A stretch of 64,000 bases of DNA from Pseudonocardia thermophila (lineage in GTDB: Bacteria; Actinomycetota; Actinomycetes; Mycobacteriales; Pseudonocardiaceae): positions 124,001-188,000 of the forward strand of contig NZ_FRAP01000002.1 in NCBI RefSeq assembly GCF_900142365.1, in the 5' to 3' direction. The notes beneath the pieces are model-generated. The model made no database searches, was not told the DNA's origin, and was given only the letters and a program-made list of their open reading frames with translations. Below are positions 47,159-57,734 of the stretch, piece by piece; position 1 is the stretch's first letter; every line of letters starts with the position of its first letter. Made by a program: the position numbers and the translations under genes.

Positions 47159-48265
47159 TCAGGCCCCGAACCCGGAGAAGAGCAGCACCGCCAGGCCCAG
47201 ACCGACCACCAGGTTCACCGCGGTCGCGCTCGCGAACACCCCGACGGGCCGCCAGCCGACCTCCTTCAGCGGAGCCACCCGGAACTCCAGCCCGATCGAG
47301 ACGAACGCGAGGATCAGGAAGATCGTCCGCAGATCGTTCACGCTCGAGATGAGCGGCTTCGCCGCGGCCGAGCCGACGACGGCGGTGAAGACCGTCGCGA
47401 TGATCGACGCAGCGAGGAACCCGAGCACGAACTTGGGGAAGCGCTCCCACAGCTCGCGGCCCCGGCCGCGGCCGATGTCGGCGCGCCGCTCCACCCGCAG
47501 TGCGAACCACGCGGTCAGCGCCACGGCGACGACGCCGAGCAGCGCGTTCTGCGTCGTCTTGACGATCGTGGCGATCTGCAGGGCCTCCTCGCCGACGAGC
47601 GCCCCAGCCGCGCTCACCGCGGCGGTCGTGTCGATGTTGCCGCCGATCCAGGCGCCCGCCACGGGTTGGGCGAGCCCGAGCGCGTCGACCGCGAGCGGCA
47701 ACAGGAAGATCGACGGCAGCGCGAACAGCACCACCATGCTGGCGGTGTAGGCGAGCTGCTCCTTCTTCGCCTGCACGGCGCCCGCCGCGGCGATCGCGGC
47801 GCTCACTCCGCAGATCGACACGGCCGTCGACAACAGCGCGCGCAGCCTGTCGTCGAGGCCCAGGCGGCCGCCGAGCCACCACGTGAAGCCGAAGACGATC
47901 GAGATCAGCAGGAGGGCCTGGACGATCGCCGGACCAGCGGCGCTCACGATCACCGAGAAGTTGATCGAAGCGCCGAGCAGCACCAGACCGGTCTTGATGA
48001 AGAACTCGGTGCGGAAGCCGCCGGCGAGCCGGTCGCGCACACCGAGCTGGGTGAGCACCACGTTGCCGATCAGACCGAGCACGATCGCGTACACCGGGTA
48101 CTCGATCGCGGCGGCGACGTCGCCGAACGCGGTGCCCTCGGTCCACGCGGGCAGACCCTGTTCGAGCAGGCGCACCAGCGCGCCGATAGCGATCACGACG
48201 GCGACGCCGCCGATCACCCAGGAGGTCGAGCTAGCGGTCGTTCGGGTGGTCGGGGCTTCGGTCAT
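47159..48265 (-). CDS. YeiH/UPF0324 putative sulfate/sulfite exporter
   Basis: 368 aa, about ten helices. GLVLLGASINFSVI, STAVSICGVSAAIAAAGAV and GGNIDTTAAVSAAGAL are family motifs. ATG 48265 is taken because it overlaps the stop of the preceding small gene (ATGA). As the last gene of the sulfonate operon it could expel sulfite released from sulfonates. That role is inferred. Confidence 0.87.
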   Translation of the reverse strand: MTEAPTTRTTASSTSWVIGGVAVVIAIGALVRLLEQGLPAWTEGTAFGDVAAAIEYPVYAIVLGLIGNVVLTQLGVRDRLAGGFRTEFFIKTGLVLLGASINFSVIVSAAGPAIVQALLLISIVFGFTWWLGGRLGLDDRLRALLSTAVSICGVSAAIAAAGAVQAKKEQLAYTASMVVLFALPSIFLLPLAVDALGLAQPVAGAWIGGNIDTTAAVSAAGALVGEEALQIATIVKTTQNALLGVVAVALTAWFALRVERRADIGRGRGRELWERFPKFVLGFLAASIIATVFTAVVGSAAAKPLISSVNDLRTIFLILAFVSIGLEFRVAPLKEVGWRPVGVFASATAVNLVVGLGLAVLLFSGFGA

Positions 48266-48531
48266 GGGATCAGCCACCCCGGGATCACGCCCGCGAGCAC
48301 GAGCAGGAGCAGGACGAGGCCGACGATCGTCGCCAGCCAGTCCTCGTTGAGCGCGGTGCGGCGGGCGGCGCCGACCGCGGGGTCGTCGTCGGAGGAGGAC
48401 ACCGTGGATTCCGTTTCCGTGAGGAGGGACAGGGTCGACGGAGGCGGTGTCGAGCTACAGAGTTCGTCGTGGGCGTGCTGCCGGCGCGAGGGCCAGACCT
48501 CCTCCAGGTCCCAGAGCACGGCGGCGGGCAC
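48262..48531 (-). CDS. Small membrane protein with leader-like N-terminus
   Basis: 89 aa. The C-terminal half is one strong helix (WLATIVGLVLLLLVLAGVIPGWLI) and is probably a small partner of the YeiH transporter. The N-terminus DLEEVWPSRRQHAHDELCSS closely repeats the ssu leader peptide (DLERFWPSRRGLAFDEFCR), so a second leader ORF seems to be fused in frame. An internal GTG before SSSDDD could start the membrane protein alone. It begins four bases after the ssuC stop. Confidence 0.65.
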   Translation of the reverse strand: MPAAVLWDLEEVWPSRRQHAHDELCSSTPPPSTLSLLTETESTVSSSDDDPAVGAARRTALNEDWLATIVGLVLLLLVLAGVIPGWLIP

Positions 48532-48535
48532 GGCG

Positions 48536-49429
48536 CTACGAGGCGAGTCCGCGGGCGCGCAGCACCCGACGCTCCAGAGGACGGAAGACCAGCAGTTCGA
48601 TGCCGATGCCGACGATCAGGATGAGGAAGATCGCTGCGATCACGCCCGGCATGTTCGAGAAGTCGCTGCCCTGCTTGAGGTAGGCACCGAGGCCGAAGCC
48701 GAGCAGGGGACCGGCAGCGATGATCTCCGCGGCCATCAGCGAGCGCCACGAGAACGCCCAGCCCTGCTTGCAGCCGGCGAGGTAGCCGGGCAGCGCAGCG
48801 GGCAGCAGGATGTGCCGGGCCGCGGTCAGCCCGCCCGCACCGAGTACCTTGCCCACACGCGGCAGGATCGGCGGGATCTGGTCGATGCCGGCAACGAGAC
48901 CGTTCGCGATCGATGGGATCGAGCCGGCCAGCACGACGAAGTAGATCGTCGCGTCGGTGAGGCCGAACCACAGCACGGCCGCGGGAACCCACGCCACCGA
49001 CGGCAAGCTCTGCATGCCGGTCAGCAGCGGCCCGATCGCTGCGCGCACCACCGCCACGCGGGCCACCAGCAACCCGAGCGGGGTCGCGATGAGCAGCGCG
49101 ATCGCGAAGCCGATGAAGGCGCGGCTGATCGACGTCCACAGGATCGTCCACACCTGGCCGTCGGCCACGGTCGCGGCGAACTCGTCCCACACCGCGGCCG
49201 GGGCGGGCACCTTGAACTCGCTCGTGATCGCCGAGGCCCAGACGATCTGCCAGATCACCACGAACAGGGTCAGCGCCACGAACGGCGGCAGCCAGGTGCT
49301 GAGCAGCTTGCGCCACCACGGGGTGGCGACGACCGTCGGTGTGTCGAGCGCGTCGAGCCCGGCGACGGCGGCGGCATCGGTGTCGGCGCCGGCGTCGTCC
49401 GGTCGCTGTCTCTCCAGATCAAGCGGCAT
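48536..49429 (-). CDS. ssuC: Sulfonate ABC transporter permease
   Basis: 297 aa, about six helices with the permease EAA-like loop AARHILLPAALPGYLAGCKQGWAFSW. It fits the SsuC/TauC branch of binding-protein-dependent permeases. Overlaps ssuB by 11 bases. Taurine, alkanesulfonate or nitrate-type ligands are possible; the sulfur context favours sulfonates. Confidence 0.87.
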   Translation of the reverse strand: MPLDLERQRPDDAGADTDAAAVAGLDALDTPTVVATPWWRKLLSTWLPPFVALTLFVVIWQIVWASAITSEFKVPAPAAVWDEFAATVADGQVWTILWTSISRAFIGFAIALLIATPLGLLVARVAVVRAAIGPLLTGMQSLPSVAWVPAAVLWFGLTDATIYFVVLAGSIPSIANGLVAGIDQIPPILPRVGKVLGAGGLTAARHILLPAALPGYLAGCKQGWAFSWRSLMAAEIIAAGPLLGFGLGAYLKQGSDFSNMPGVIAAIFLILIVGIGIELLVFRPLERRVLRARGLAS

Positions 49430-50198
49430 GGCTCGTGATCACCTCCCGCAGCCGGGCGGTGATCTCCTCGTGCAGCCGTTCAGAGTTGGCGCCGACCGTC
49501 CACTCCCGCACGACCGTGCCGGGCCGCGACGACAGCAGCACCACCCGCTGGGCGAGCCGGACGGCCTCGCGCACATCGTGGGTGACGAACAGGATCGTGA
49601 TGCCGGTGGCCCGCCACACCCTCAGCAGCTCACCCTGCAGCACGTCACGGGTGATGGCGTCGAGCGCGGCGAACGGCTCGTCCATCAGCAGCAGGCCCGG
49701 GGTGTCGGCGTCGGTGACGCTCGTGGCGGCGGCGAGCGCGCGCGCGAGCGCCACCCGCTGGCGCATCCCGCCCGACAGCTCGTGTGGACGCTTGGCGGCC
49801 TGGCCCCCCAACCGCACCAGCTCCAGCAGCTCCTCGGCGCGCGCTCGCCGCTCCTTGCGGCTCATCCCCGCGAGCCGCAACGGCAGTTCGACGTTGCGGC
49901 CCGCGGTGAGCCACGGCAACAGCGCGGACTCCTGGAACATCACCGACGGCCGGGTGGTGCGCACGTCCAGCGTGCCCGACGTCGGCCGGTCCAGGCCCGC
50001 GACCAGGTTGAGCAGGGTCGACTTGCCGCACCCCGAAGCGCCGAGCAGACACACGAACTCGCCCGGCGCGACGGCCAGGTCGATGTCGCGCAGCGCCGTG
50101 ACGGCCGACGGGCCGCTGCCGAACGTCTTGTGGACTCCGGTGAGCGCGACGGCGGGGGTGCGGCGCACGGGTGCCGAGCGCTCCAGGGTGGCGGTCAT
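49419..50198 (-). CDS. ssuB: Sulfonate ABC transporter ATPase
   Basis: 259 aa. Walker A GASGCGKST, Q-loop near VMFQESALLPW, signature LSGGMRQR and Walker B LLLMDEPFAALD are intact. It powers import by SsuC and SsuA. The order A-B-C with seven-base or shorter gaps marks one operon. Confidence 0.9.
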   Translation of the reverse strand: MTATLERSAPVRRTPAVALTGVHKTFGSGPSAVTALRDIDLAVAPGEFVCLLGASGCGKSTLLNLVAGLDRPTSGTLDVRTTRPSVMFQESALLPWLTAGRNVELPLRLAGMSRKERRARAEELLELVRLGGQAAKRPHELSGGMRQRVALARALAAATSVTDADTPGLLLMDEPFAALDAITRDVLQGELLRVWRATGITILFVTHDVREAVRLAQRVVLLSSRPGTVVREWTVGANSERLHEEITARLREVITSHAA

Positions 50199-50205
50199 CG
50201 GTTCC

Positions 50206-51276
50206 TCATCCCTGCTCGTCGAGGCCCGCGGCGTCCACCGCGGGCAGACCGGCGGCCTGCCGCACGTTGTTGAGCGCGGTCAGGTCGACGAAACCGTTCA
50301 GGTCGACCTCCTTCTGCTGCGCGCCCGCAGTGACGCTGTCCTTCGACAGCTGCGGGAACGTCGCGGCGAGGGGGTCGCTCGAGAAGGACAGCTCGCTGAA
50401 GGCGCGGTCGAGCACCGCGGGGGAGAGCGACGAGCCGGTGAACTCCTTGATCGCGTCGTTGGTGACGGTCTTGGCCTCCGCCTGGTTGTTCTGGGCGAAG
50501 TCGATCGCCTTCTGCTCGCCGCGCAGCAGCGCCTCGACCGTCTCCGGGTGCTGCTGCAGGAACTCGGTGCGCACGATCAGCACGGTGGTGGGGAACTGCC
50601 CGCCCGGCCACAGGGTCTTCTCGTCGACGAGCACGTGCGCGCCGGCGTCCACCAGCCGGGAGCTCCACGGCTCCGGCAGCCAGCCGCCCGCGATCTCGCC
50701 GGAGCGGTAGAGATCGAGCGTGCGTGGGTTGTCGAGGTTCTGGACGGTGACCCTGTCCGGACCCTCGCCGATCTCCAGCCCGTTCTCCTTGAGCCACTTC
50801 TTCAGCGCGACGTCCTGGGTGTTGCCGAGCTGCGGCGTCGCGATGATCTTGCCCTTGAGCTGCTCGGGCGCGGTGATGTCGGGGGTGGTGACCAGCTGGG
50901 CCCCGCCGGAGGTGGACCCGGCGATCAGCCGGATCGCCTGGCCGTTCGACTTCGCGAACGCGTTGATCGCGGGGCTGGAGCCGATGAACCCGGCGTCGAG
51001 CGAACCACCGAGCAGCGCCGAGACCTCGTCCGGGCCGGCGTTGAACTGCTGGGTCGTGAGCTTCGTGGCGCCGAGCTCCTCGGCGAAGAAGCCCTTCGCG
51101 TCGCCGATGAGGGCGGGCGCGTGGGTGATGTTCGGGAAGTAGCCGAGCCGCAGCTCGGCGGCCGGGCCGGTCGCGGCCTGCTGGGGGGCGGGCGACTCCG
51201 TGGCGCGGGAGCAGCCGGCCAGCGCGGTGAGGGAGATCAGGGCGGCAACGAGCAGACTTCTGGTGCGCGAGCGCAT
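50206..51276 (-). CDS. ssuA: Sulfonate ABC transporter substrate-binding lipoprotein
   Basis: 356 aa. The signal peptide ends in a lipobox with Cys22 (LTALAGC). The body is an NMT1/OpuAC-type SsuA fold with LRLGYFPNITHAPALIG and GSLDAGFIGSSPAINAFAKS. First full gene of the operon, 150 bases below a cysteine leader ORF. The exact sulfonate is not known. Confidence 0.88.
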   Translation of the reverse strand: MRSRTRSLLVAALISLTALAGCSRATESPAPQQAATGPAAELRLGYFPNITHAPALIGDAKGFFAEELGATKLTTQQFNAGPDEVSALLGGSLDAGFIGSSPAINAFAKSNGQAIRLIAGSTSGGAQLVTTPDITAPEQLKGKIIATPQLGNTQDVALKKWLKENGLEIGEGPDRVTVQNLDNPRTLDLYRSGEIAGGWLPEPWSSRLVDAGAHVLVDEKTLWPGGQFPTTVLIVRTEFLQQHPETVEALLRGEQKAIDFAQNNQAEAKTVTNDAIKEFTGSSLSPAVLDRAFSELSFSSDPLAATFPQLSKDSVTAGAQQKEVDLNGFVDLTALNNVRQAAGLPAVDAAGLDEQG

Positions 51277-51350
51277 GGAAGATCCTCGACGAGTGGTGGA
51301 ATGAGGGGGAATCGACGGTCGGAGATGCGCCTCGGAGGCGCGGTAGATAC

Positions 51351-51398
51351 CTGTGCTGAAGGCGGGGCTGAAGACTGTGCTGAAGGCCGTGCTGTAGG
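51351..51398. repeat. Four 12-bp tandem repeats in the ssu leader region
   Basis: Consensus CTGTGCTGAAGG, four units; units 1 and 3 are identical and units 2 and 4 diverge by a few bases. They lie between the leader-peptide stop and ssuA, inside the transcribed leader. They may act in attenuation or be a slipped repeat. GCGCCT-CGG-AGGCGC just below (near 51328-51342) can form a small hairpin. Confidence 0.7.
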
Positions 51399-51426
51399 GG
51401 ACGAAAAGGCGATCAGCGAGGAGCGA

Positions 51427-51546
51427 TCAGCGACAGAACTCGTCGAAGGCGAGGCCCCGGCGCGACGGCCAGAAGCGCTCGAGGTCCATGACCAGCACGC
51501 GAACCCGCTGCGCGTGTGCGCGCGTCAGAGCGGGGGCGGTCATCAC
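51427..51546 (-). CDS. Putative cysteine leader peptide of the ssu operon
   Basis: 39 codons from GTG 51546 (or ATG 51543; a 20-codon version from ATG 51489 is possible). It ends FWPSRRGLAFDEFCR-stop, with Cys as the next-to-last residue. The position (150 bases before ssuA), size and terminal Cys fit a peptide whose translation senses charged tRNA-Cys. The sequence is unlike the known RRHVDLxR...C leader type. Confidence 0.55.
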   Translation of the reverse strand: MMTAPALTRAHAQRVRVLVMDLERFWPSRRGLAFDEFCR

Positions 51547-51553
51547 GCCGACC

Positions 51554-51582
51554 ATCGTCTGTGAACGGCGCCCCCGATTCAA
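51554..51582 (-). promoter_or_regulatory. Promoter of the ssu leader and operon
   Basis: TTGAAT (complement of 51577-51582), exactly 17 bases, then GACGAT (51559-51554), seven bases before GTG 51546. The geometry is a standard housekeeping promoter giving a leaderless first ORF. Confidence 0.55.
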
Positions 51583-51599
51583 CCGTTCGTCCGAGTCGC

Positions 51600-52166
51600 G
51601 GGATGGTTCGGAAATGTCCGGACAACTGGGTTTATGCAGGTCAGTGCGGCGTGTCGGGTGTGGAGTGACGCAGGTCTCCCGAGAACGCCCCGTTCGGCCC
51701 AATCGGCAACGTCCGTACAGCTGTCCTCGAACGGGTTCGGGGCGTTTCCGGTCCGGTAAGGCCGATCACCGAGAGATCATCCGCGGCCGCGTGTTCCGTG
51801 TGGTGAGATGTGCGCCCGGTGCGGCGGCGAGTCGCGCGTTTAGCCCGGTGAGTCCTGCGCTCGGGCCCGGAGAGTTCGGCATCTGGTCTGGCCATTTCTC
51901 CGTTCGGTGCAGCGAGTTGCACATCTGAGGGGGTTGTTGGGCGCTGACATCTGCCCCCGTCCCGGGACCCTGGCGTCCGGTGCGTGCCGAAATGCGCGAC
52001 TCGCCCGACGGAGCGCGCCTGTCGGGGCATTTGCGGGACTCGCCGTCACGAAAGCCGCAACTCGGCGTCCCGGTAAGGACCACTCGCGGGCCTCGTCGGG
52101 GCAACTCGCCGGGCTCGTCGGGGCAACTCGCGCCCCGGGCTCGGGCCCGACGTCGGATCCCGGGGC
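51600..52166. repeat. Gene-free region of degenerate GCGAGTCGCGC-type repeats
   Basis: No gene is visible here. Words such as GCGAGTCGCGCG (51827-51838), GCGAGTTGCACAT (51912-51924), AATGCGCGACTCGC (51991-52004) and GGGACTCGCC (52036-52045) repeat in both orientations. CTCGTCGGGGCAACTCGC occurs twice, at 52092-52109 and 52114-52131. Eighteen bases at 51821-51838 recur at 62253-62270, so this is a dispersed intergenic repeat. Confidence 0.6.
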
Positions 52167-57647: not shown

Positions 57648-57734
57648 TCAGCCGTGCAGACAGAGCGCGCTGTTCACGCGCAGGAGATCGACGTGCCGGC
57701 GGGCCACGAGCAGCAGCGTGTCCGGCGACGTCAT
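57648..57734 (-). CDS. Cysteine leader peptide of the sirA-cys operon
   Basis: 28 aa ending RRHVDLLRVNSALCLHG. This matches the widespread actinobacterial putative leader-peptide type with an Arg-Arg-His-Val-Asp core and a Cys near the end. It lies 85 bases before sirA, with CACCCT seven bases before its ATG. Ribosome stalling at the Cys codon when cysteine is scarce would open the operon. The mechanism is inferred from this class. Confidence 0.8.
   Translation of the reverse strand: MTSPDTLLLVARRHVDLLRVNSALCLHG

Follow-up and report, generated by a model that had tools for sequence, protein, structure and literature searches.

A short open reading frame (ORF) ahead of the aliphatic sulfonate uptake genes of Pseudonocardia thermophila encodes a peptide of a family with the core consensus LExFWPSRRxxAFDExC. 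As far as sequence comparison can establish, the family combines a conserved reading frame, an invariant UGU codon at a fixed place and a location before sulfur genes. We consider it likely that the peptide is a cis-acting leader, which controls the ssu operon by ribosome-mediated attenuation and responds to cysteine at the UGU codon; translation of the leader, pausing, cysteine dependence and the direction of control are what we infer. The initial annotation had proposed that leader peptides ending in Cys and standing before sulfur genes form a family of their own, and the conservation of the peptide together with the variation by codon position supports this proposal.

Organisation of the ssu locus

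The window, i.e. the whole stretch of 64,000 nucleotides that was analysed, contains the leader ORF, (V)MTAPALTRAHAQRVRVLVMDLERFWPSRRGLAFDEFCR-stop, on the minus strand at 51427..51546, recognised from the ORF list and from its conservation in relatives. Its start is GTG (51546-51544) or ATG (51543-51541), giving 39 or 38 residues, respectively, and it closes with FWPSRRGLAFDEFCR and the stop codon TGA (51429-51427). From there 150 nt lead to the ATG of ssuA, confirming the 39-codon ORF 150 bases 5' of this gene that had been annotated. The conserved core, LERFWPSRRGLAFDEFCR (51430..51483, minus strand), was delimited by alignments of hand-picked peptides, residue counts and a codon-position test, and the proposed sensor, the Cys codon TGT 13 codons past the F of FWPSRR (51433..51435, minus strand), by codon counts across leaders.

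The genes that follow are all on the minus strand. Behind a spacer that is C-rich by its C-G skew (51277..51426) lies the gene of an SsuA-family aliphatic sulfonate substrate-binding protein (50206..51276; TIGR01728, 166.9 bits, cut-off 163.5). It is followed by an ssuB-like ABC ATPase (49419..50198), for which the top NCBIfam matches shown were all under their own cut-offs, and by an ssuC-like ABC permease (48536..49429), named by position and translation only. A second copy of the leader, with the core DLEEVWPSRRQHAHDELC and its TGT at 48459-48457, was found by tblastn, profile search and frame reading directly 3' of ssuC (about 48457..48531, minus strand). It has no stop past the Cys, and its frame runs into a small membrane ORF 5' of yeiH; leader and gene may therefore be fused. 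The gene yeiH itself, for a YeiH-family putative sulfate exporter, was recognised by PF03601 at 47159..48277 (minus strand), TIGR00698 remaining under its cut-off.

A promoter of its own with 17-bp spacing had also been ascribed to the leader, and such an arrangement is present just upstream of the GTG/ATG. A layout scan and reading of the sequence place a -35-like TTGAAT at 51577..51582 and, 17 nt past it and 7 nt from the GTG, a -10-like GACGAT at 51554..51559, both on the minus strand. A scan for E. coli-type consensus promoters found none and does not report TTGAAT-17-GACGAT. The layout TTGNNN-N16..18-[CTG]A[CG]NAT-N5..8-in-frame NTG, a pattern defined post hoc from these same leader sequences, stands 5' of 21 of 73 leaders, whereas 50 rounds of mononucleotide shuffling gave 0.0 on average and 1 at most. 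Since the -10-like element is only 7 nt from the GTG, the mRNA of the window leader may start at or beside its start codon, i.e. be leaderless, as judged from this spacing. The start of the mycobacterial TauE leaders L104 and L111 is instead preceded by an SD-like GGAGG. Leaders of the Pseudonocardia group (e.g. L003, L009, L032 and L037) share a TTGTCC-17-CACGAT-6-(G/A)TG layout, which departs from the usual -10. This layout could be that of a particular sigma factor, and it points to leaderless starts.

Distribution and conservation of the peptide

When the 38-residue peptide was used in tblastn searches, matches with E<1e-3 were obtained in 22 of the 24 sister genomes, often in several copies and with a best value of 9.3e-10. 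At E up to 10, matches were found in 32 of 41 genomes, those outside the genus being mostly weak and many of them surely due to chance. Profile searches recovered the family in at least 57 of 397 genomes of the order (E up to 0.01) and, with a broader profile, in at least 39 of 296 genomes of the class (E up to 0.001); these tallies are lower bounds, as 21 (order) and 29 (class) candidates of some 48-288 per genome were scored. Conservation of the peptide in relatives had been named beforehand as the test of the leader, and it was found across sister genomes, order and class.

Across 396 genomes of the phylum, a strict DNA pattern matched five times, in four genomes, and no match was seen with the reversed control. 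With a DNA-pattern search of named genomes at least 117 matching stretches were obtained, and the carriers among the matches listed were Pseudonocardia, Actinomycetospora, Mycolicibacterium/Mycobacterium, Actinokineospora, Kutzneria, Goekera, Kineococcus, Motilibacter, Embleya, Rhodococcus and Streptomyces. One of the Streptomyces matches, L103, lacks the Cys and is probably a chance match. The leader sequences are related by descent, and counts of them do not represent independent events. GC-rich DNA is rich in short ORFs (57 ORFs of at least 25 aa overlap 7 kb here), from which a spurious ORF with chance similarity could arise; against the E values in the sister genomes and the strict-pattern matches, absent from the reversed control, this explanation is practically negligible.

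A divergent form, mostly DLEPFWPSRQHHDFDRVCC, was seen at L313 and L321-L332 in a genus with large genomes, which we take to be probably Streptomyces. By eye, the ORF that it precedes resembles an OmpR-type winged-helix regulator.

The DNA pattern itself fixes most of FWPSRR...D, for which reason loci recovered by protein-level searches or via the downstream genes were used to assess how conserved these residues are. Among the 74 leaders from protein-level searches, selected for agreeing with the consensus at 9 or more of 13 residues, the W and both R were present in all 74, the F in 73 and the Cys in 72. The core D is replaced by S in two of the seven ssuA leaders of the genus in the gene-side set. 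For the conserved residues of the 74 leaders, Cys and Trp excluded, the mean pairwise mismatch at codon positions 1, 2 and 3 was 0.11, 0.13 and 0.38, although picking leaders by likeness to the consensus pushes the mismatch at positions 1 and 2 down. Equal rates of synonymous and nonsynonymous change had been named as evidence against the peptide; the rates are not equal, third positions varying far more. Third positions of the core P, S, R and R vary, and the core Ser is encoded by TCN as well as AGY codons. The core is thus, on the evidence of its codons, under frame-specific selection as a peptide. No sequence common to the groups was seen in the segment N-terminal to LE, and initiation at the only in-frame start would leave this segment just five residues long in some leaders (L112).

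Codon usage at the cysteine position

The Cys codon was outside the DNA search pattern, which ended before core position +13. At this position 153 of 155 leaders have TGT, two have TGA and none has TGC, the 155 being 159 frames minus four that were open for more than 40 codons; one of the dropped frames is the second copy of the window, which has TGT. In the ORFs downstream of the leaders the Cys codons are TGC in 118 and TGT in seven cases. The loci from protein-level searches had TGT in 72 and TGA in two of the 74, and in the other sets all codons were TGT (9/9 and 13/13). The latter set of 13 is the divergent DLEPFWPSRQHHDFDRVCC form, in which a second Cys codon follows at once, TGC in 10 of 13. 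The Phe at +0 is encoded by TTC in 154 of the 155 leaders, and the U-ending Cys codon therefore opposes base composition. A further Cys codon directly after the TGT occurs in 33 of the 153 leaders having the Cys, the window leader having one Cys.

The same genome carries a leader of the known RRHVDL type, MTSPDTLLLVARRHVDLLRVNSALCLHG, before sirA (57648..57734, minus strand; Cys TGT 57662-57660). It matches NF042934 with 33.8 bits (cut-off 27 bits), and its sequence differs from that of the ssuA leader, so the earlier statement on these two leaders was right. For comparison, 82 distinct RRH[VIM]DL frames were collected, of which 30 resembled leaders in having R at +7 and a stop within 28 codons. 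At +13 these have TGT in 26 cases and a stop codon in four, and the other Cys codons inside them are all TGC (12/12). In both families a conserved hexamer thus lies 8-13 residues ahead of the UGU, and the UGU 13 codons past the hexamer start, a rule derived here and not by NCBI. The RRHVDL-type leaders with a stop precisely at +13 in place of UGU (L036, L127, L142 and L197) are followed by related large ORFs, the N-termini of which are like those of FAD/NAD-binding enzymes.

Downstream genes

The 159 leader places were assigned to 33 clusters of downstream genes, the families being named from one or few representatives of each. TauE/SafE (70), beta carbonic anhydrase (22) and SsuA (13) were the largest, followed by O-acetylhomoserine sulfhydrylase (8), YceI (8) and YeiH (5). 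Adenylylsulfate kinase, cysteine dioxygenase, peroxiredoxin, OsmC, DUF4395 and a sulfatase-modifying enzyme were found as singletons. For YceI we know of no citable link to sulfur. Downstream genes were predicted by a script using GC periodicity, which found none at 5 of the 159 places; a few calls are wrong (L066, L145 and L186, where a gene further on was taken), and some ORFs of less than 100 aa are probably not genes.

At L129, L153 and L007 two leaders of the family stand back to back on opposite strands, a few hundred bases apart, before divergent genes, which at L153 and L007 are ssuA in one direction and adenylylsulfate kinase in the other. Upstream of the sulfhydrylase leaders at L169, L188 and L088 the sequences GTTGGCAGG..GCCAGCAA were seen, reminiscent of a SAM riboswitch. 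Rfam gave no match in L169 and L188, loci with these sequences; a second layer of control at such sulfhydrylase leaders is possible.

From the gene side, 7 of 10 ssuA homologues of the genus, including that of the window, have the leader, with TGT in all seven, and the other three have neither leader type in the stretch scanned. Five ssuA homologues from outside the genus gave one RRHIDM leader, one divergent MWATRRGHLFDQVCC and three without anything recognised. Of 48 TauE homologues listed, 30 were retrieved and 29 of these examined: three (those of at least 78% identity) have FWPSRR, one has RRHVDL, and the scanned stretch of the remaining 25 contains neither type. The SsuA and the TauE homologue with such an RRH(I/V)D leader belong to other families, and TGT is the Cys codon in both. 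As homologous SsuA and TauE genes have either type, the FWPSRR and RRHVDL leaders look exchangeable in these comparisons.

Strong amino-acid conservation is also what a functional small protein would show. That the product acts as such, and not as a cis-acting leader, is very improbable considering the location before sulfur genes, the several diverged copies per genome, the unconserved N-terminal part, the selection on a silent codon choice (UGU) and the substitution of another peptide before homologous genes.

RNA features around the leader

In the window, TCGACGAGT in the FDE codons (51438..51446, minus strand) is complementary to ACTCGTCGA (51286..51294, minus strand), which overlaps the Shine-Dalgarno sequence (SD) of ssuA, GAGGA (51287-51283). 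This nine-base pairing was equalled by 21 of 1000 shuffled spacers. A modelled stall of the ribosome at the UGU raised the openness of the SD in the window from 0.29 to 0.48, control windows staying at 0.29. In the ssuA group the change was from 0.51 to 0.59 (control 0.51), with 3 of 12 up by more than 0.1; in the carbonic anhydrase group from 0.44 to 0.49 (control 0.45; 8 of 20); and in the TauE group from 0.36 to 0.40 (control 0.39; 13 of 66). Compared to shuffles, pairing between leader tail and SD had a mean z of -1.24 in the TauE group (40 of 66 tested) and -0.85 in the ssuA group (12), a weak -0.33 in the carbonic anhydrase group (20) and +0.27, i.e. none, in the metY group (5). In the TauE group the wobble base of the Ala codon and the SD did not covary; the Ala codon opposite the SD A is GCT in 19, GCC in 18, GCA in 3 and GCG in 3 cases, the SD form being present in 47 of 66. 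Masking of the SD was rejected as a general mechanism on account of this missing covariation and the small gain in openness, and is kept as a possibility for the window.

These pairings could be read as a pure codon-starvation attenuator, in which the conserved residues merely reflect an RNA element (antiterminator or anti-Shine-Dalgarno) in their codons. The window pairing, the opening of its SD on a modelled stall and the pairing beyond shuffles in the TauE and ssuA groups are in line with such a reading, but the P, S, R and R codons differ at their third positions between leaders, Ser switches its codon family, the Ala wobble base and the SD do not covary, and the gain in SD openness is small across groups. 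We regard this explanation as distinctly improbable.

The spacer has a C-G skew of 0.43 in the window (first 135 nt), means of 0.22-0.34 in the four larger groups and 0.19 in the single yeiH case; controls had a mean of 0.03 (sd 0.14), and a stricter control of 25 regions 0.02. It is thus C-rich and G-poor as expected of a Rho-dependent attenuator, and action of Rho itself would be consistent with this composition. No intrinsic terminator with a U-run was found, with 0 terminator-like sites at 50900-52000 of the window. At gathering score Rfam had no match in the window, and 12 related loci gave only a tRNA.

In the carbonic anhydrase group a predicted helix of at least 7 bp begins exactly 5 nt past the UGU in 17 of 20 leaders, and the longest helix has a mean of 8.2 bp at UGU+5 and mostly about 4 elsewhere. 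No helix peak was present at UGU+5 in the ssuA group (12). Inspection of single leaders showed a long GC hairpin at UGU+5 at L042, L093, L095, L102, L105, L116, L166, L180 and others, several of the carbonic anhydrase leaders having the leader stop inside it; L042, L093, L095, L102 and L116 matched no Rfam family. Helix length also rises weakly and broadly 3-5 nt past the UGU (49 sequences), and in single folds, 35 of which were viewed by eye, candidate hairpins surround the leader stop. No gain in covariation was obtained when 50 mycobacterial TauE sequences were analysed with RNAalifold.

Two further candidates were rejected. A -1 frameshift or second stop past the UGU was considered, and a -1 stop within 45 nt was found in 6 of 12 ssuA and 7 of 16 non-mycobacterial TauE leaders; the counts in the other groups were 1/20 for carbonic anhydrase, 0/5 for metY, 0/1 for yeiH and 10/50 for mycobacterial TauE. 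An unusually stable fold of the whole spacer was not obtained, the mean z being -0.21 for TauE (40 of 66), -0.53 for carbonic anhydrase and -0.76 for ssuA, and positive for metY and yeiH. The sensing end of the predicted leaders is thus uniform and the read-out end is not; no read-out structure is common to all groups.

Comparison with known leaders

Leaders with Cys codons are known. In mycobacteria they have been predicted, with Rho suggested and no conserved terminator hairpin, according to the available part of the account by Seliverstov (2005, PMC1262725), and leaderless short ORFs with Cys codons have been seen by ribosome profiling (available part of Shell 2015, PMC4633059). The poly-Cys leaders of M. 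smegmatis are reported to be cysteine-responsive (Canestrari 2020, as cited in the available parts of PMC13236596 and PMC9031893). As described in these partial texts, the mycobacterial poly-Cys leaders are also short ORFs, upstream of cys genes, with their Cys codons towards the end, and they are leaderless, which the FWPSRR leader may be as well; they have a run of Cys, in contrast to the FWPSRR leader with its one obligatory UGU, long conserved core and other targets. The uORFC-8-2 motif before cysS (PMC8632094) is also a Cys-codon uORF for which ribosome-mediated attenuation is proposed; unlike the FWPSRR leader it has, in the part of the account available, tandem Cys codons, mostly UGC, and a terminator with a U-run. 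The FWPSRR core is not mentioned in that part of the account.

The NF042934 family (cis_reg_atten; related to the Ms4527A family, NF042936) resembles the FWPSRR leaders in being a short ORF with a hexamer 8-13 residues before a terminal Cys (UGU), and differs in its peptide, RRHVDL being unlike FWPSRR. Two FWPSRR peptides did not match NF042934 and related leader models. In NCBIfam the peptide had no match above cut-off (one match reached 13 bits, the cut-off being 267), and Pfam at E up to 0.001 had no family for it. A full-text literature search, covering part of the literature as text without figures, found no paper on the FWPSRR core. Because the defining features of both are not found in it, the FWPSRR family is, by its sequence features, outside NF042934 and outside the poly-Cys leaders, Cys-codon leaders themselves being already known.

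In arrest peptides of the TnaC type, too, conserved residues stand about as far from the decoding point, and TnaC arrests in response to tryptophan. For TnaC-type peptides the decoding point is a stop after Pro, whereas in the FWPSRR leader it would be a Cys codon, with no known ligand and arrest only proposed. Amino-acid conservation ahead of the stall codon, the mark of an arrest peptide, is found in the FWPSRR leaders. The nascent LExFWPSRRxxAFDEx chain itself could bind a ligand such as cysteine, sulfide or sulfite inside the exit tunnel and halt the ribosome at the UGU or at a stop, tRNA charging not being the signal. The residues 8-16 before the A-site codon are conserved beyond the needs of codon starvation, and a stop replaces the Cys in 2 of 155 FWPSRR and 4 of 30 RRHVDL leaders. 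The Cys codon is, however, nearly always kept and is solely UGU, which argues for decoding and not for the peptide alone, and we find this explanation unlikely.

Model of regulation

We therefore return to cysteine-responsive attenuation at the UGU as the preferred explanation. The ribosome would translate LExFWPSRRxxAFDEx and reach the single UGU 13 codons past the F. With charged tRNA-Cys scarce it would pause there, and a pause at this exact place would raise expression of the downstream sulfur gene. With cysteine plentiful the ribosome would finish within one or a few codons and leave, and expression would fall. A tRNA-Cys with only the GCA anticodon reads UGU by wobble, and one Cys codon alone classically counts as a weak sensor of starvation; the conserved residues ahead of the UGU probably prolong the pause via the exit tunnel. 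The invariance of the UGU codon lends indirect support to cysteine sensing by the leader. The read-out is probably gene-dependent: in the window it would perhaps be masking of the SD by the FDE codons or Rho in the C-rich spacer, and before carbonic anhydrase genes the long hairpin 5 nt past the UGU. The direction of control may also differ by gene, as TauE/SafE, YeiH exporters, cysteine dioxygenase and rhodanese fit sulfur excess or detoxification equally well.

More tentatively, the two leader types might form a composite cysteine sensor in actinobacteria, in which the hexamer, FWPSRR or RRHVDL, would be at the constriction of the exit tunnel as the wobble-read UGU enters the A site. Two unrelated peptides would then share one geometry and one codon, for which a stop could substitute.

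The FWPSRR leaders add a second large family of cysteine-codon leader peptides. Their invariant UGU in GC-rich genomes, common to the RRHVDL family, provides a sharp rule for finding more leaders, and the conservation of the peptide makes joint action of codon starvation and nascent-chain arrest testable. The family ties scattered genes, those for sulfonate uptake, TauE/YeiH transporters, carbonic anhydrase, cysteine dioxygenase, sulfhydrylase and CysC, to one apparent signal.
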